A DNA stretch of 64,000 nt from Gemmatimonadota bacterium. Lineage in GTDB: Bacteria; Gemmatimonadota; Gemmatimonadetes; Gemmatimonadales; GWC2-71-9. Both the position numbers and the translations under genes were made by a program. The notes beneath the pieces were generated by a model. It saw nothing but the letters and a program-made list of their open reading frames with translations, did no database searches and was not told the DNA's origin. Location: NCBI GenBank assembly GCA_003222195.1, contig QHVB01000027.1, forward strand, positions 124,001-188,000. Direction: 5' to 3'. Shown here piece after piece: positions 19,504 through 64,000 of the stretch (its first letter is position 1; the number at the start of each line of letters is the position of its first letter).

Positions 19504-20352
19504 TTACGGTACCAGCTGCTCTCCGAAATTGTTGACCGACCACGTCATAAACGGGTTGTTGAACGGGAACGCGTAGCCGGCACCACTGCAGGCTGATCCA
19601 CCGACCGGCAGCGTCTGCGTCACCCGCCCGGCCGACCAGCTCAAAGGGGGGGCCCCGAGACACACCTCGAACATAAGGCTGCCGGTGTTGCCGAGATTGC
19701 CGAACACGAAGCTCCCGTCGGCTCCCGACATCATGGTGGCGATGACCTCGCCGTTCCACCGCAGGTCGACGGTCCAACCCTCGATCCCCAGTTCACCCGA
19801 GAAGATGTCCTGGACGCCGTTGCCATCGAGGTCCTCGAACACCACACCCCTCGCCTGATTCTGCCCCGTCGGGGGCGGTGAAGGCGGCGGCGGAGGCGGC
19901 GGAGGCGGCGGAGGCGGCGGCGGCACCGGAGCCGGAGGCGGCGGAGGCGGCGGCGGTGGCGGCGGTGGCGGAGCCGGTGGAGGCGCCGGGGGCGGCGGCG
20001 GTGGAGGCACCGGGGGCGGAGCCGGGGGCGGCGGCGGTGGCGGCGGCACCGGAGCCGGAGGCGGCGGCGGTGGCGGCGCCGGTGGAGGCGCCGGAGGCGG
20101 CGGTGGAGGCGGTGGCGGCGGCGCCGGAGGCGGAGCCGGTGGCGGCGGAGGCGGCGGCGGCGGCGCCAGAGGCGGCGGAGCCGGGCACTTCTTCGCGAGA
20201 CCCGGAGGCACGTGACCGCTGTTGCCAGCGGTCGCAACGGCCCCTGCGGCCTTGCATGTGTTGGCGCTGTTGCCATGGCTCTGCGCGGCGACCGCGAACA
20301 GCGGCAACGCCGACAGGCCCAGCACAGCAAACAGGACGCGAACGCTTTTCAT
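19504..20352 (-). CDS. Secreted polyproline protein with SdrD_B-like C-terminal domain
   Basis: A 282-residue exported protein. Signal peptide residues 1-21 (ending AVAAQ). Residues about 55-165 are almost pure proline, with scattered alanine, valine and leucine, encoded by a GGC/GGA-rich (antisense) low-complexity stretch at 19870-20185. The C-terminal domain begins QARGVVFEDLDGNGVQD, with Asp-rich turns typical of the SdrD_B/Cna-B-like fold, and ends after a pair of cysteines. The polyproline likely acts as a rigid spacer holding the domain away from the surface. The start ATG at 20352 has AGGAGA four bases upstream. A terminator follows the gene. Function unknown. Confidence 0.85.
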   Translation of the reverse strand: MKSVRVLFAVLGLSALPLFAVAAQSHGNSANTCKAAGAVATAGNSGHVPPGLAKKCPAPPPLAPPPPPPPPPAPPPAPPPPPPPPPPAPPPAPPPPPPPAPVPPPPPPPPAPPPVPPPPPPPAPPPAPPPPPPPPPPPPPAPVPPPPPPPPPPPPPPSPPPTGQNQARGVVFEDLDGNGVQDIFSGELGIEGWTVDLRWNGEVIATMMSGADGSFVFGNLGNTGSLMFEVCLGAPPLSWSAGRVTQTLPVGGSACSGAGYAFPFNNPFMTWSVNNFGEQLVP

Positions 20353-40384: not shown

Positions 40385-41605
40385 ATGCTGCTCGGCGAGA
40401 TTTTCCAGGTCGCGCTCCAGGCGATCCGCGCGAACAAGCTGCGGTCGTTCCTGACGATGCTGGGCATCATCATCGGCGTCGGCGCGGTCATCACGATGGT
40501 CGCGCTCGGCAGCGGCGCGCAAAAGGCGGTGCAGGAGCGCATTCAGGCGCTCGGCCCTACGCTGCTGTCGCTCTACCCGGGGCAGTCGTTCCGCGGCGGG
40601 ATCATGATCGATTTCGGATCGCGGGTCAGTCTGACCGTGGACGACGCGAACGCCCTCGCGAGCAGTGCCCGGTACGTGAAGGCGGTGGTCCCGGAGCTCA
40701 CGCGCAATCTGCAGATCAAGAAGGGCGGCCAGAACGCGAACGTGAACATCGTCGGCACGACGCCGAACTACCCCGTCGTGAAGAACTACACCCTCACGGC
40801 CGGACGGATGTTCACCGCCGGCGAGGACGAAGGCCGCCGCCGATTGGCTGTGCTCGGCTCGGCCATCCCGGACATGTTCAATGCGAATCCTGGCGCGATG
40901 ATCGGCCAGGAGATTCAAATCCGCGGGATTCCGTTCGAGATCGTCGGCGTGTTGTCGTCGAAAGGCTCGGCGATGGGGTTCGGCAATCCGGACGAGCAGG
41001 TGTTGATCCCGCTGCAAACCGCCCGCTACCGCATCATGGGGACGGATCGGCTGCGGACCATCACGGTGGACGCCGCCAACGTGCAGCAGATGACGCTCTC
41101 GATGATCGAGATCGAGCGCGTGCTGCGGCGTGAACACAAGATCCGGCCGGGCGCCGAGAACGATTTCCAGATCCGCAATCAGTCGGACATTCTCGCCACA
41201 TTCCAGCAGACGACGCAGACGTTCACGTACCTGCTCGCCGGCATCGCGGCCGTGAGCTTGCTGGTCGGCGGAATCGGGATCATGAACATCATGCTGGTGT
41301 CGGTGACCGAGCGGACGCGTGAGATCGGGGTGCGCAAAGCCCTCGGGGCGACGCGCTTCAATATCCTGTTCCAGTTTCTAGTCGAAGCGCTGGTGCTGTG
41401 CCTGGTCGGCGGGATCATCGGGATTCTGTTCGGCGCGCTCGGCGCGGTCGCGCTTTCCAAGCTCGCGCACTGGAATACGTCTATCAATTTCTTCGCGATT
41501 CTGGTCGCGTTCGTCTTCAGCGCGATCGTGGGGCTGTTCTTCGGGATCTGGCCGGCGCGGCGCGCTGCCGCACTCGATCCCATCGTAGCGCTGCGATACG
41601 AATAG
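40385..41605 (+). CDS. MacB-type ABC transporter permease
   Basis: A 406-residue FtsX/MacB-fold permease: one N-terminal membrane helix (about 20-45, SFLTMLGIIIGVGAVITMVALGSG), a large periplasmic domain (about 46-275), and three C-terminal helices including GGIGIMNIMLVSVTERTREIGVRKALGA, the MacB coupling signature. The ATPase domain is a separate gene. Mechanotransmission drives export of lipids, peptides or small molecules through TolC. It ends a gene run that includes the ECF sigma factor; an inverted repeat follows. Confidence 0.94.
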   Translation: MLLGEIFQVALQAIRANKLRSFLTMLGIIIGVGAVITMVALGSGAQKAVQERIQALGPTLLSLYPGQSFRGGIMIDFGSRVSLTVDDANALASSARYVKAVVPELTRNLQIKKGGQNANVNIVGTTPNYPVVKNYTLTAGRMFTAGEDEGRRRLAVLGSAIPDMFNANPGAMIGQEIQIRGIPFEIVGVLSSKGSAMGFGNPDEQVLIPLQTARYRIMGTDRLRTITVDAANVQQMTLSMIEIERVLRREHKIRPGAENDFQIRNQSDILATFQQTTQTFTYLLAGIAAVSLLVGGIGIMNIMLVSVTERTREIGVRKALGATRFNILFQFLVEALVLCLVGGIIGILFGALGAVALSKLAHWNTSINFFAILVAFVFSAIVGLFFGIWPARRAAALDPIVALRYE

Positions 41606-41610
41606 TCAAA

Positions 41611-41708
41611 GCGTGCGGCGTGGGGCGTGCGGCGATGATGGGCCGAGCTGACGCTTCGTAGGGTGGTTCGAACTAGACGTTGACACGCCGCACGCGACAC
41701 GCCGCACG
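41611..41708. repeat. Heptamer-based inverted-repeat element
   Basis: Two arms of 23 bases (41612-41634 and 41686-41708) are inverted repeats with 21 matches, separated by 51 unique bases. Each arm is itself a run of 7-bp units of the form CGTGCGG or CGTGNNG. It lies between the stop of the permease gene and the start of the DUF5916 gene and holds no ORF. TTATTTTAA follows the right arm, so a terminator function cannot be excluded. Confidence 0.8.
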
Positions 41709-41722
41709 TTATTTTAATCTCC

Positions 41723-44029
41723 ATGCTCGCCGTTCTTCTCGTGGTGCTCCAGTCGCAAAGCAACCCGCAGGCGGTGTACGACGGCCGCCTGCACCAAACC
41801 GACGTCCGCATCCCGCGGCTCGACGTCGGCGTAACGGTCGACGGGGTCCTGGATGAGCCGGTGTGGCGTGAGGCCGCGTTGCTCAAGGGCTTCACCCAAT
41901 ACCGGCCCGTCGACAGCCGCCCCGTGGCGGACTCCACCGAGGTGCTCGCCTTCTACGGGCCCGACGCGATCTACTTCGGAATCCGCGCGTATGAAGCGCA
42001 TGGCACAGTTGTCCGCGCGACCCTCGCCGATCGCGATAATATCGGAACCGACGACAACATCCAGATTCTGCTCGACACCTTCAACGACCGGCGGCGGGCC
42101 CTGTTGTTCGCGGTCAATCCGTTCGGCGTACAGCAAGACGGCGTGCGCAGTGAAGGGCTCGCCGGCGCGGCGGGCGGAGCCAACGCGGGATTCCGGTTCG
42201 ACGGCGTGGTCGATCTCAATCCGGATTACGTGTACCAGTCAGCGGGCCACGTGACGCCGTGGGGCTACGAAGTCGAGGTGCGCATCCCCTTCAAGAGTTT
42301 GCGTTACCAGAGCGGCGCGACGCAGGACTGGGGCATTCAAGTCATTCGCGTGACCCAGCACACGGGGTACGAAGACACGTGGACTCCGGTGGTGCGCGCC
42401 AACGCGAGCTTTCTCATTCAGTCGGGGACACTCAAGTCGCTGACCGGGCTGCATCGCGGCCTGGTCATGGATGTCACGCCGGAGTTCACGTCACGGCTGG
42501 ACGGCGCACCCGGCTCGCCATCCTCGTATCAGTACCAGAACATCAATCCCGAGCTCGGCGTGAATGTGCGCTGGGGGATCACGCAAAACCTGAGCGCGGC
42601 GGGGACGGTGAACCCCGACTTCTCACAGGTGGAAGCGGACGTCGGGCAGGTCACGGTGAACCAGCGGTTCGCGCTGTTCTTTCCCGAGAAGCGGCCGTTC
42701 TTTTTGGAAGGCCTCGAGCAGTTCGACACACCCAACGCACTTATCTATACGCGTCGGATTGCGGCGCCCATCGCAGGTACCAAGTTGACCGGCAAAGTCG
42801 GCGGGATGGGGGTCGCCTACATCGGAGCCGTCGACGATAACAACGACGTCCCGCGCCATTACCCCGTGCACAACCTGCTCAGGCTACGGCGCGATCTGGG
42901 CGCGAGCTCGACGCTGGGACTCGTCTACACCGACCGAATCTTCGGGAGCGCATGGAACCGCGTCCTCGGCGCCGATGCTCGCGTCATCTGGAAGAAGATC
43001 TGGTTTTCCACCGCACAGATCGTGGGCTCTTGGACGAAGGACGTCGGGACCCAGTCCGGAGCGCTCTGGGACGTGACGCTCTATGACCGCACAGGCTACT
43101 CCTACGGCAATCACGCCGAGCTCGTCGGCATCAGTCCCAATTTCGCGGCGCTGAGCGGATTCGTGAATCGCGTCAACATCGTGCAGGGCCGTTTCGCGAA
43201 TCGTTTCACGTGGTACGGGAAGCCCGGCGCATTGCTTGAAAACACCACGACCTTCATTCTCATCCAGCCGACCTGGCGCTACCGCGACTTCTTCAAGCTC
43301 GGGAGCACGCTCGAAGGCAGCATCAACCAGAATTGGATCTTCACGCTCCGCGGTGGCTGGAATCTGTCGGCGTACCTTGCCAACGATCATCAGGTGTTTG
43401 ATCCAGCCGACTTTGCCGGCTATCAGGTGGAATCCGGAGGTACACTGCGACCCTTCGCGGTCCCGCACGGACTCTACAACCTCTGGACCGGAATCGCCGC
43501 GGTGGCAACGCCGGAACGGACGTGGAAAGTGAACGTCAGCATCGGACGCGCGTCCGGTCCGATCTTCGCGGAGGCCGCGGAAGGTCGTGCCCTGAACCTG
43601 TTCCTCGCCGCGACCTGGAAGCCGACGCCGACGTTGCACTTCGACGCGCAATGGCCTCACCAGATCATCACTCGGGCACGAGACGGGAGCTGGTTTTCCT
43701 CAGCCAATATCCCGCGTCTCAAAGTCGAGTACCAGCTCACGCGGGACATCTTCTTCCGCTACGTAGGCCAGTACACGGCGCAGAAAGTCGACGCGCTGCG
43801 CGATCCGCGCACTGACGACACGCTGGTCGTCAACGGCACGCCGCGGGCTCGAACCACGAGTGCCGACTTCCGCAACGACTTCCTCTTCTCGTACAAGCCG
43901 ACGCCCGGGACCGTGCTGTTTTTAGGATATGGCGCGTCGCTCACCGAGGCCGATCCCTTCAGCTTCCGCCGTCTGTACCGCACCGGCGATGGCTTCTTCT
44001 TGAAAGCCAGCTACCTGTTCCGCCTGTGA
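41723..44029 (+). CDS. Outer membrane DUF5916 protein with CBM9-like N-terminus
   Basis: A 768-residue protein. A short hydrophobic leader precedes a carbohydrate-binding-9-like domain (residues about 28-215; [35 protein letters not shown]). The DUF5916 beta-barrel-like region follows (about 220-768; [34 protein letters not shown] is its hallmark) and ends in an aromatic residue-rich strand with terminal YLFRL. Such proteins are probably outer-membrane barrels tied to peptide or glycan handling. Its ATG follows the inverted repeat by 14 bases and its stop overlaps the MCP start. Confidence 0.9.
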
Positions 44030-45661: not shown

Positions 45662-47005
45662 CTACAGGTTCACCGCGCGCCGCAGCCGGGCAGTCGCGGC
45701 GTTCGCATCGCGGCGAATCTCCGCAACATTTGCCGTCTTCAACTCACCGTCCCGGACCACGATCCGGCCGTCCACGATGACGTGCCGCACGTCCGCGGCG
45801 CGCGCGCTGTAGACGATGCGCGACATGAGATCCGCGCTCTCCGGCTGCGCGTGCGGCTCAGCGAGATCGAGCACCGTCACATCCGCGCACTTCCCGACCT
45901 CGATCGACCCGATCTCCGACTCGAGTCCCAGCGCGCGCGCGCCCCCCAGCGTCGCCAGCTCCAGCACTTGCGTCGCCGGAAGCGCGTCCGGTCCGAGCCG
46001 CGGCTTCTGAATCAGCGCGGCCAGACGCATCTCGGCGAAGGCGTCGAGGCGATTGTTGCAGGGCGCCCCATCCGCGCCGATGCCGACCCGGCAACCGGCG
46101 GCCAGCATTTCGGGAATCGGGGCGATGCCACTGCCCAGCTTCAAGTTCGAGCTGGGACAATGGACGACGTTCGTCCGCTGCCGCGCGAGCGCGGCGATGC
46201 CGTCGCGGTCGACCCAGACGCAGTGCGCCAGCGCCGCCCGTGGCCCCGAGATCCCAACCGAGTCGAGGTAGGCGATCTCGTCATGGCCGGTCTCGCGCTT
46301 GACCGTATCCAGCTCGAGCGGCGTTTCCGCGGCGTGCGTGTGAATCGTCGCCCCGCTTCGCTCGGCGAGATCGCTCACCGCTCTGAGCAGCGGCCCCGTG
46401 CAGCTCGGCGCGAAGCGTGGGGCATAACAGTAGCGCAACCGCCCACCCGCGGCGCCATGCCAGCGCGCGCACAAGTCCGCGCTCTCGGTGATCGCCTGGT
46501 CGGTGGACTCGCGCAGTGCCGGTGGATTCGCCGGGGGAGGGGCATCCATCAGGCACTTTCCCGCTGTCGCGCGGATCCCAATGGACTCGAGCGCCTCGAA
46601 GGCGGCTTCGGTGTGACGCACGGTCTCCATGTCGAGAATCGCCGTCGTGCCGCCGAGCAACAACTCCGCCGCGCCCAGCATCGCGGACGCGTAAACCGAG
46701 GCTTCGGTATGCGCGGCTTCGAGCGGCCAGATGCGCTTCGCCAACCACTCCTCGAGCGACAAGTCGTCGGCGAGGCCGCGGAAGAGAGTTTGACAGAGGT
46801 GAATGTGGGCTTGCACGAGACCAGGCAGAACGACCAGCCCGCTGCAATCGATCGTGATTGGCTTTGACCGTCCAACCGTCCGACCGTCCAACCGTCCAAT
46901 GCGTTTGATTCGCCCGTCTTCGATGAGCACATCGGCGTTCAGGATGCGGCGGGAGGCATCCATCGTCACCACCCGCCCGCCGCGCAGCAGCAGCGATTTA
47001 CTCAA
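45662..47005 (-). CDS. Amidohydrolase, 5-methylthioadenosine/S-adenosylhomocysteine deaminase-like
   Basis: A 447-residue TIM-barrel deaminase of the MtaD/SsnA group. Metal ligands: H67-x-H69 (QAHIHLCQ), later HTHAAE, AHCVWVD with HCPSSN, and D in IGADGAPCNN. It probably deaminates adenosine derivatives or guanine-like bases. The start is TTG 47005, overlapping the stop of the upstream lipoprotein gene. Oddity: residues 37-47 are encoded by a perfect two-copy 16-bp tandem duplication inside the variable loop before TIDCSGLVVLPG. The gene is convergent with the MCP gene, one base apart. Confidence 0.9.
   Translation of the reverse strand: MSKSLLLRGGRVVTMDASRRILNADVLIEDGRIKRIGRLDGRTVGRSKPITIDCSGLVVLPGLVQAHIHLCQTLFRGLADDLSLEEWLAKRIWPLEAAHTEASVYASAMLGAAELLLGGTTAILDMETVRHTEAAFEALESIGIRATAGKCLMDAPPPANPPALRESTDQAITESADLCARWHGAAGGRLRYCYAPRFAPSCTGPLLRAVSDLAERSGATIHTHAAETPLELDTVKRETGHDEIAYLDSVGISGPRAALAHCVWVDRDGIAALARQRTNVVHCPSSNLKLGSGIAPIPEMLAAGCRVGIGADGAPCNNRLDAFAEMRLAALIQKPRLGPDALPATQVLELATLGGARALGLESEIGSIEVGKCADVTVLDLAEPHAQPESADLMSRIVYSARAADVRHVIVDGRIVVRDGELKTANVAEIRRDANAATARLRRAVNL
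46866..46897. repeat. Intragenic 16-bp tandem duplication (8-bp units)
   Basis: GACCGTCCAACCGTCC is present twice in perfect tandem; it is also four units of (G/A)ACCGTCC. It sits inside the amidohydrolase gene, encoding residues 37-47. A change by one 8-bp or one 16-bp unit would shift the reading frame. Confidence 0.9.
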
Positions 47006-62463: not shown

Positions 62464-63079
62464 TGGGTTGAATCCGTTCACGGTCCTGCTCTTTGTGGGC
62501 GCCGTGCTGGTGGGGGCGACGCTCATCCTCCTCTACGTGATCGCGCGAGTGACGAAGCGCGAGCCGTTCGCCCGAATTACACTGCGGCTGCTGCTCGGGG
62601 GCGCGGGTCTATATCTGCTCCTGTTCCTCGGCGCCTCACTGCTGAGCCACAATCGCGTGCTGGCGCCGGGCGAGGAGAAGCACATCTGCGAGATCGACTG
62701 TCATCTGGCGTACGCAATCGCGGCGACCAAGTCGGAACCACTGCCGAACGGGCTGGTACGGACCACGGTGACGGTCAAAGTCCGATTCGATGAAGAGACG
62801 ATCTCGTCGCGCCGGCCTCGGGACGCGACGCTAACACCCAACAGCAGATACGTCGCGTTGGTGGATGACGCGGGCAACCGGTACCCGGGGTCGACCGATG
62901 GGCTGAAGCGCAAACTGATTCCCGGCGAGTCGTACACGACTGACATCGTGTTCGACGTACCTGCGGCAGTACCGGGCTTACGCTTGATCCTGCGCAACAA
63001 CGATCCCGAGACGGCATTCATCATCGGGCACGAGAACAGCCTGCTCCATGGCAAGACCACCTTTCGCTTGCCAGGATAG
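62453..63079 (+). CDS. Membrane-anchored beta-sandwich protein, unknown
   Basis: A 208-residue protein with two N-terminal hydrophobic segments (about 8-30 and 42-62) and an extracytoplasmic domain. That domain begins HICEIDCHLAYAI, with a Cys-x3-Cys pair, and has DUF4352-like strands (LVRTTVTVKVRFDEETI, SYTTDIVFDVPAAVPGLRLILRN). ATG 62453 is preceded by AGGAG seven bases upstream. It ends the cluster controlled by the winged-helix regulator; the 3' end lies just before the left inverted repeat of the four-helix-bundle gene. Confidence 0.8.
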   Translation: MITDGLNPFTVLLFVGAVLVGATLILLYVIARVTKREPFARITLRLLLGGAGLYLLLFLGASLLSHNRVLAPGEEKHICEIDCHLAYAIAATKSEPLPNGLVRTTVTVKVRFDEETISSRRPRDATLTPNSRYVALVDDAGNRYPGSTDGLKRKLIPGESYTTDIVFDVPAAVPGLRLILRNNDPETAFIIGHENSLLHGKTTFRLPG

Positions 63080-63080
63080 G

Positions 63081-63583
63081 GGTCAGGTGTCTGGTGTCAG
63101 GGACGACGTGCCTTGAGCGCCCGGACGAGACCGGCAAGGAGCCGTCCGACGTCTCCGCTCAAATTCAGCCCGTGCTCTAAAGCGGCCTGATCGATGTAGT
63201 GCCTGCGCGAGGCGATTAGAAACTGAGTCTCAAGCTCCATCAATGATCCATTCGCAATCGATAGGTGATGGAGATACTCTCCGAGGTGTTGCCTTCCGTG
63301 TCCCTCAGCGATGTTGCTGGGAATCGACGCGGAGGAGCGCTGCATTTGACTCGTTAATGCAAATCGCTCGTCCCTAGGAAACGATTTGGTGACCTCGTAG
63401 GCGAAGTCAGTGAGCTCCATCGCGCGCTGCCAAACGATCAAATCGCGATACGAAACGACACGGGTTCGTGCAACGGTCATCCTCGACAATCGTATGTCAG
63501 CGTCGGTCGTTGTCAGACCATTCGAGCTCCCCTGGGCACATTCGAGCGCAGACCTGACACCAGACACCCGACACCTGACACCG
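63081..63583. mobile_element. Heptamer inverted-repeat unit carrying a four-helix-bundle gene
   Basis: The left arm 63086-63101 (GGTGTCTGGTGTCAGG) and the right arm 63553-63568 are perfect 16-bp inverted repeats. The right arm continues outward as further 7-bp units of GGTGTCN on the minus strand (63569-63582); the left arm shows a partial extra unit (GGTCA, 63081-63085). The 127-codon minus-strand gene lies between, with its stop codon inside the left arm. No transposase and no target-site duplication are seen. Confidence 0.65.
63097..63480 (-). CDS. Four-helix-bundle protein (S23/IVS-encoded type)
   Basis: A 127-residue four-helix-bundle protein. Recognised by VSYRDLIVWQRAMELTDFAYEVTKSFP, then RFALTSQMQRSSASIPSNIAEGHGR and LHHLSIANGSLMELETQFLIA. 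This is the family of proteins encoded in 23S rRNA intervening sequences, and of the Avd accessory protein of diversity-generating retroelements; the function of lone copies is unknown. ATG 63480 is the first start at the conserved N-terminus; the frame is open to 63681 but overlaps the right repeat and the divergent gene. The stop codon falls in the left repeat. Confidence 0.92.
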   Translation of the reverse strand: MTVARTRVVSYRDLIVWQRAMELTDFAYEVTKSFPRDERFALTSQMQRSSASIPSNIAEGHGRQHLGEYLHHLSIANGSLMELETQFLIASRRHYIDQAALEHGLNLSGDVGRLLAGLVRALKARRP

Positions 63584-63598
63584 CTAGATTTGATCATC

Positions 63599-64000
63599 AT
63601 GCTCCTCCGTATCACGCAGGTAGACGCCTTCACCAATCGCCCGTTCGCCGGCAACCCCGCCGCCGTCTGCATCCTTCCCAAGGCCGCCGATTCCGCCTGG
63701 ATGCTGAACGTCGCGCGCGAGATGAACCTCGCCGAGACCGCGTTCCTCGTTCGCCAAAAGGATGGCTACGATCTCCGCTGGTTCACGCCCGCGGTGGAAG
63801 TCGATCTCTGCGGTCACGCGACACTCGCGAGCGCGCACGTGCTATGGGAAGACGGACATCTCAAACCTGATTCGCAGGCGCGCTTCCACACCAAGAGCGG
63901 TCTCCTGACAGCCGATCGGCGCGCGCCCTGGATCGAGCTCGACTTTCCCACCACGCCGCCAGTGGCCGCACCTCCGCCCGCCGGTCTCGTCGAGGCGCTC
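63599..64000 (+). CDS. PhzF family protein (5' part)
   Basis: The first 134 codons are present; the gene continues beyond the right edge. The sequence matches the N-terminal half of PhzF/YddE proteins: ITQVDAFTNRPFAGNPAAVC, MNLAETAFLV with the catalytic-type glutamate E46, and LRWFTPAVEVDLCGHATLASAHVL. Family members adopt the diaminopimelate-epimerase fold and act as isomerases or hydrolases of unknown substrate outside phenazine clusters. No phenazine genes are nearby, so a phenazine role is not implied. ATG at 63599, 119 bases from the divergent four-helix-bundle gene. Confidence 0.93.
   Translation, partial: MLLRITQVDAFTNRPFAGNPAAVCILPKAADSAWMLNVAREMNLAETAFLVRQKDGYDLRWFTPAVEVDLCGHATLASAHVLWEDGHLKPDSQARFHTKSGLLTADRRAPWIELDFPTTPPVAAPPPAGLVEAL

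Follow-up and report, generated by a model that had tools for sequence, protein, structure and literature searches.

Our study indicates that a short tandem array located inside a deaminase gene of a Gemmatimonadota genome from soil (labelled G000 in our genome comparisons) is probably an array-only derivative of the end repeats of a mobile element built around a four-helix-bundle gene of the PF05635 family, and that it has been tolerated in a protein loop. On the evidence presented here, the array looks like a tolerated passenger and not like an on/off switch. It lies within the 64,000-nucleotide stretch of DNA that we analyzed (the window), and it was compared with similar arrays in the same genome, in related genomes, and beside PF05635 genes of Gemmatimonadota and of cyanobacterial plasmids.

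The array occupies positions 46866-46897 (forward-strand coordinates) and consists of two perfect 16-bp copies, 46866-46881 and 46882-46897, each of which reads GACCGTCCAACCGTCC in the window. The original prediction had described these copies as four 8-bp units; the two 16-bp copies stand, but the four units (RACCGTCC, or GTYGGACG on the coding strand of the deaminase) are not equal, given that, counting from 46867, the second one ends in G and the others in A. TRF delimited the repeat at 46867-46899, with period 8, 4.1 copies, and a score of 59. The whole array is contained in a 447-aa open reading frame on the reverse strand (45662-47005), where it occupies codons 36-47 in frame, in agreement with the earlier claim that the repeat lies inside the reading frame of a deaminase gene near its N-terminus; with 576.6 bits against the NCBIfam model NF005557 (cut-off 522), the product belongs to the 5'-deoxyadenosine deaminase family. 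The variable loop that had been proposed for this place was also observed. In an AlphaFold2 model, for which the input was a 44-sequence alignment, the array residues form the turn between strands 32-37 and 50-53, which is the block of lowest confidence in the model (pLDDT 70, against a model mean of 94.2), and the loop from I33 to D53 measures 21 residues here and 18-36 residues in 15 other Gemmatimonadota rows, with outgroup lengths of 16-19 residues in 22 of 28 rows, 20-22 in five, and 37 in one. Folding of positions 46840-46925 revealed no hairpin (z +0.5), the array being single and not palindromic, and a PADLOC scan of the deaminase and of the four-helix-bundle protein encoded in the window returned no match.

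The repeat belongs to a dispersed family. With at most one mismatch, the 16-mer was found 17 times in the 3.5-Mb genome, including both window copies, and its reversed control was not found at all; a looser 14-mer gave 74 matches against 4 for the control, and a three-unit pattern (GTYGG units eight bases apart) gave 47 against 3. This three-unit pattern is present in 62 of the 102 family genomes, with 120 matches in the richest one, and a four-unit pattern is present in 57 of the 395 genomes of the phylum; it is important to consider that the reversed control also scores in some of the 102 family genomes (for example, 19 in G097, 8 in G101, and 8 in G015) and that counts mean little in genomes where it does so, such as G167, G241, G298, and G097. 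When 684 kb of the genome were surveyed with no preset motif, the coding arrays included 11 of period 7 and three of period 8, the next non-triplet period being 14, with two arrays, and periods 4, 5, 10, 11, and 13 having none. When codons were shuffled within genes, the intergenic arrays remained the only ones of period 7 and arrays of period 8 did not become more numerous, and in 420 kb of the control genome G027 no array of period 7 or 8 was found.

Among the 31 arrays that we delineated in sampled stretches, which are matches of one octamer family with some one-mismatch matches absent, 25 overlap a predicted gene, a figure that includes one that merely touches the start of a gene (L184), one in a doubtful ORF (L179), and one 14-nt match (L170). 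Since about 94% of the genome is coding according to the codon-usage gene finder that provided our gene calls, and that missed the window's own four-helix-bundle gene, this proportion means that genes are not strongly avoided; the density of arrays is about three times higher between genes than within them. A Pfam family was assigned to 19 of the 20 array-bearing proteins scanned, and the families include aconitase, queuine tRNA-ribosyltransferase, iPGM, biotin carboxylase, VitK2_biosynth (MqnA), and a cytosine/purine permease.

The window also contains a four-helix-bundle gene with arrays at its sides. Its coding region (63133-63447, reverse strand; 23S_rRNA_IVP, PF05635/TIGR02436; 111.4 bits against TIGR02436, cut-off 24) is part of an ORF whose true start is unsure (63097-63681), and it lies between a left array of 7-bp units of the GGTGTCA type (63078-63101, forward strand), which is inverted to 63553-63576, and a right array of 7-bp units of the GACACCT type (63553-63582, forward strand), which is 92% complementary to the left one over 24 nt. 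The element 63078-63582 thus has, as 23S-rRNA intervening sequences do, an ORF of the S23 protein, which we take to be the PF05635 family in keeping with the Pfam name 23S_rRNA_IVP, between inverted ends. It is located between predicted protein genes that end at 63079 and start at 63590, and not in a 23S rRNA gene, and its unit differs from that of the deaminase array. Its protein was rejected as the Avd protein of diversity-generating retroelements, with 34.4 bits against NF033474, below the cut-off of 80. Another array of 7-bp units (41611-41634, forward strand) is inverted to positions 41686-41708 of its partner (41682-41708, forward strand), to which it is 91% complementary over 23 nt; the pair occupies the gap between predicted genes ending at 41605 and starting at 41723, with no predicted gene between the arrays. 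These inverted heptamer arrays, 51 nt apart, constitute an array-only palindrome. On contig 24 of the same genome, an inverted octamer pair surrounds another PF05635 gene. Elsewhere in the window (19874-20184), there are about 300 bp of GGC/GGA-rich repeats whose TRF periods of 12, 33, 36, and 42 are all multiples of three and which resemble a coding repeat rich in glycine. As regards the deaminase array, it sits inside its host gene with no four-helix-bundle gene carried and no inverted partner array, and consequently it could represent no more than an array-only derivative.

Arrays stand beside PF05635 genes in many genomes. Our sample comprises 72 PF05635 loci: 50 from the genus, which has 89 matches, and 22 from the rest of the family, which has 287. 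The search tool selected 30 and 22 of them, respectively, and the highest-ranked of the remaining matches supplied another 20; three copies of G000 were left out, and weak or broken copies are under-sampled. An array within 300 bp of the match, on either side, was found at 55 of the 72 loci and in 81 of 1000 random windows, the latter drawn from G000 only and the former from many genomes; arrays on both sides were found at 24 loci, against 1 random window in 1000. Left arrays number 41, a count that leaves out one flank consisting of a run of N, and right arrays 38, with 40 and 42 per 1000 in the random windows. In addition, the two flanks share an exact inverted match of 12 nt or more at 47 of the 72 loci (12 of 1000 random windows), and any array or inverted match is present at 63 of them (91 of 1000); the other nine loci have neither within 300 bp. 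PF05635 matches are present in 85 of the 102 family genomes, and their number correlates with that of the octamer arrays (rho 0.53 for the 102 genomes; rho 0.56, p 1.6e-4, for 41 genus means), a correlation that, being drawn across related genomes, is not independent evidence. The control genome G027 has neither a PF05635 match nor an octamer array. A clear exception to the correlation is G083 (78% complete), which has 80 octamer matches and zero PF05635 matches; either its PF05635 gene was missed or arrays persist without the gene.

The arrays embedded in genes also share sequence with those beside PF05635 genes. At least 12 nt are shared with a PF05635-flanking array by 25 of 39 embedded arrays, the corresponding figures for 780 random coding windows and 780 shuffled-unit arrays being 8 and 12; 20 of these 25 matches depend on one locus, G004:C289, without which 5 of the 39 match, against 7 of 780 and 6 of 780, respectively. 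The five are DUF1501 loops with 10-bp units in three species, an ImuB loop with GATGGAAC-type units, and a GpmI loop (GGAGTCA). At G004:C289, which belongs to a sister species, an intact four-helix-bundle ORF lies between GTCGGACG-type arrays that are similar to each other and have no exact inverted 12-mer between them. None of the other 71 loci has the GTCGGACG unit, and an array in the flank of G004:C289 has a 15-nt exact match with the window array. The repeat is one of a dispersed family whose like recurs beside four-helix-bundle genes, which supports the suggestion in the original prediction that it could be a simple repeat invasion that has been tolerated.

Similar loci were also identified on plasmids, mostly in another phylum. 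A search of plasmid proteins with the four-helix-bundle region of the window returned 21 records, 19 of them cyanobacterial, and all 12 plasmid loci examined (11 cyanobacterial and one from Gemmatirosa, including two near-copies on two plasmids of one strain) have a period-7/8 array, nine of them on both sides and the others on one. Two of these plasmids also provided 38 short control genes, none of which has such an array beside it; among 1000 random windows, 18 have one. Plasmid C of Trichormus variabilis carries a 428-bp insertion with a four-helix-bundle gene and period-7 repeats that is absent from two plasmids with 98% identical flanks, that is, a clean insertion with two empty sites; the 5-bp GTAAT is present at both of its ends, in this one case only. 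At three other plasmid loci (five comparisons), a relative is also without the gene, with less clean boundaries. In two different cyanobacteria (Anabaena sp. 90 and Pseudanabaena galeata), the place between cas6 and cas4 on a plasmid is occupied by a four-helix-bundle gene that has heptamer arrays.

We conducted a comparison of the loops of 13 array-bearing genes with those of up to nine relatives of the same genus, which resulted in 97 rows once seven TolB rows with a one-sided anchor were excluded, PstB having yielded no rows. A scored array is present in 39 of the 97 loops (period 8 in 32, period 7 in two, period 9 in two, and period 10 in three) and not in the other 58; for comparison, 10 of 4000 random 33-nt windows of G000 score as an array. 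At the same sites, sister species have other 7-10-bp arrays, some of them as inverted pairs. The aconitase loop has 30 nt in G000 and four relatives, 9 nt in one, and 0 nt in three; the Tgt loop measures 33 nt here and 9-12 nt in six relatives, and two further relatives have inverted arrays in it and lengths of 63 and 81 nt; for ImuB, three relatives carry inserts, which measure 48, 51, and 75 nt. The four inserts that were folded, two of ImuB and the two long ones of Tgt, all form hairpins (z -5.0 to -9.4). Other sites are of constant length (33 nt in MqnA, 33 nt in ThrAld, and 24-27 nt in GNAT), and their native peptide resembles the one encoded by the arrays. The deaminase orthologue is present in all 10 members of the genus, and the units in its loop differ: GTTGGACG here and in G009, GTCGGACG in G008 and G002, GTTGGAAC in G005, and GTCGGCCC in G003, with a degenerate array or no scored array in G004, G007, G001, and G006. 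Outside the genus, four of 17 readable loops have a period-8 array and two an array of period 7.

These comparisons bear on an explanation that we consider unlikely, while giving it real weight, namely that the arrays grow in place by slippage or template switching on a local seed (GTCGG, Val-Gly) in tolerant loops, with mutation bias producing the recurring unit and no mobile element being involved. The constant-length sites (MqnA, GNAT, and ThrAld), with their unit-like native peptide, are places where arrays may have grown in this way; the deaminase loop starts at a conserved Val/Ile-Gly, a single loop carries differing units across species, and the sequence link of the unit to a PF05635 element comes from one locus. 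However, one unit recurs at dozens of unrelated sites, there are inserts, inverted pairs included, that are matched by short or empty sites in relatives, and, with the G004 locus set aside, there are still five embedded arrays, of other units, that match PF05635-flanking ones. We infer that the deaminase array is derived from an element end and did not arise in place.

A second explanation, that selection maintains the arrays as targets of a regulator that binds DNA or RNA, appears very improbable. The arrays of Geobacter metallireducens, many of which are opposite-strand pairs, are annotated as predicted sites for a global regulator or as regulatory RNA elements (PMC2700814); against this interpretation, the units at one site differ between species, and most of the delineated arrays are inside unrelated genes.

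The layout of the deaminase array had originally been regarded as typical of a phase-variable contingency locus, in which slippage by 8-bp units would toggle the deaminase off and on, a view consistent with a unit length that is not a multiple of three and with the in-frame position near the N-terminus. We rejected this possibility, which now has hardly any credibility, because no out-of-frame change in unit number was found among the relatives: 96 of the 97 orthologous loops in the nine same-genus relatives keep the frame, and the only exception, the deaminase of G009, lies beside the array and not in it. Copy number was also compared among relatives, and G009, whose deaminase is the most similar one (93-97%), has an array identical to that of the window. 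Furthermore, the tract is short, its units are not all identical, and the host gene encodes a metabolic enzyme. In the out-of-frame row, the G009 array is intact and the stretch just 3' of it is shorter; this gene (G009:C223, stretch L040, approximately 1430-1600), with its frame break 3' of the array, runs to the contig end, and the break could be real or an assembly error. Equally remote is the possibility that the arrays are REP-like elements mobilized by a Y1 (RAYT-type) transposase, a mover that is not needed according to the 102 genomes compared, given that Y1_Tnp is found in 20 of the 29 array-rich genomes (at least 8 matches) versus 36 of the 73 others, a weak difference (Fisher p 0.08), and that the array-rich G011, G035, G074, and G007 have no Y1_Tnp match.

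For the derivation from PF05635 elements, we propose the following mechanism. The full element would measure approximately 430-510 bp and would consist of a four-helix-bundle gene (PF05635) with an array of 7-10-bp tandem units on each side, the two arrays being inverted relative to each other, and array-only derivatives, single or as inverted pairs, would also insert into genes. The four-helix-bundle protein may take part in moving these elements; we know of no transposase activity of such proteins. None of the six frames of the GTCGGACG unit contains a stop codon, and three units make 24 bp, so that some insertions leave the protein with a short loop or tail rich in Gly, Arg, Asp, Val, and Thr; both properties would help an array to survive in genes. 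Selection would presumably remove the frame-breaking insertions and retain the frame-preserving ones in permissive places, such as the turn of the deaminase, where the array is likely to be without benefit to the host. The units would turn over after insertion, and sister species would consequently come to have different units at the same loop.

More broadly, and only as a tentative proposal, S23/PF05635 genes could be the core of a widespread class of mobile elements that end in tandem arrays and are active in both Gemmatimonadota and cyanobacteria, and perhaps in Geobacter as well. Their array-only offspring might explain the dispersed hepta- and octamer repeats that have been known for a long time, and might repeatedly supply new protein loops. 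This proposal offers one testable cause for the dispersed short tandem repeats of several phyla, for the role of a four-helix-bundle protein that has mostly been described in rRNA intervening sequences, and for the acquisition by enzymes of loop insertions that keep the frame. It also follows that non-triplet arrays in genes should be compared among relatives before they are called phase-variation tracts.

Dispersed hepta-/octamer arrays, S23 intervening sequences, and in-frame repeat insertion (in Rickettsia) are already known. What appears to be new is the connection among dispersed arrays, S23/PF05635 elements, and in-frame loop insertion, which we did not find among the literature matches listed; these contained nothing on point on repeats in Gemmatimonadetes or on STRR/heptanucleotide repeats, and none that tied S23/four-helix-bundle genes to dispersed repeats, STRR included. 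The STRR heptanucleotide repeats of heterocystous cyanobacteria, reportedly described by Mazel et al. in 1990, are said to be dispersed in Nostoc/Calothrix-type genomes and are, by that description, like the heptamer arrays that flank PF05635-type genes on Nostoc/Calothrix-type plasmids. The palindromic elements of Rickettsia, reportedly described by Ogata et al. in 2000 and 2002, are said to be dispersed and inserted in frame in protein genes. They are palindromic and longer, and to our knowledge they have no tandem 7-10-bp units or partner gene. The arrays in our study are likewise found in frame in unrelated protein genes; unlike those elements, the window array is non-palindromic by its folding score. 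The four folded inserts in relatives do form hairpins. The Rickettsia elements are cited as small repeats that are in frame in many protein genes (PMC6649704).

Palindromic or dyad-symmetric repeats inside coding sequences have also been reported as PARCELs, which are believed to spread both inside a genome and from one genome to another (PMC2996958), and in nematomorph mitochondria (PMC6649704). The former differ from our arrays in that they form tracts of protein repeats of 25 residues (PMC2996958), and the latter in that they are long coding palindromes that encode conserved residues (PMC6649704). The intervening sequence in the 23S rRNA of Coxiella burnetii resembles the full element: in the accessible part of the report, it is described as 428 nt long, with inverted ends and an S23-protein ORF, as horizontally acquired, and as suspected to be mobile (PMC4990558). 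That part makes no mention of tandem-array ends, and intervening sequences are located in 23S rRNA and excised by RNase III (PMC4990558), whereas the elements identified here lie between or inside protein genes. Finally, Geobacter metallireducens, according to the available sections of its genome description, has tens of copies of arrays of three to five tandem 7- or 8-nt units, with one heptamer family located within and between genes and octamer families that are mostly opposite-strand pairs (PMC2700814). Those arrays have other units (GGACCGG and GTTGCTYN) and were read as regulatory, and neither a four-helix-bundle gene nor a loop insertion in frame is named in the same sections; the Geobacter arrays nevertheless resemble the ones described here in being dispersed hepta-/octamer tandem arrays that occur within genes and in pairs (PMC2700814).
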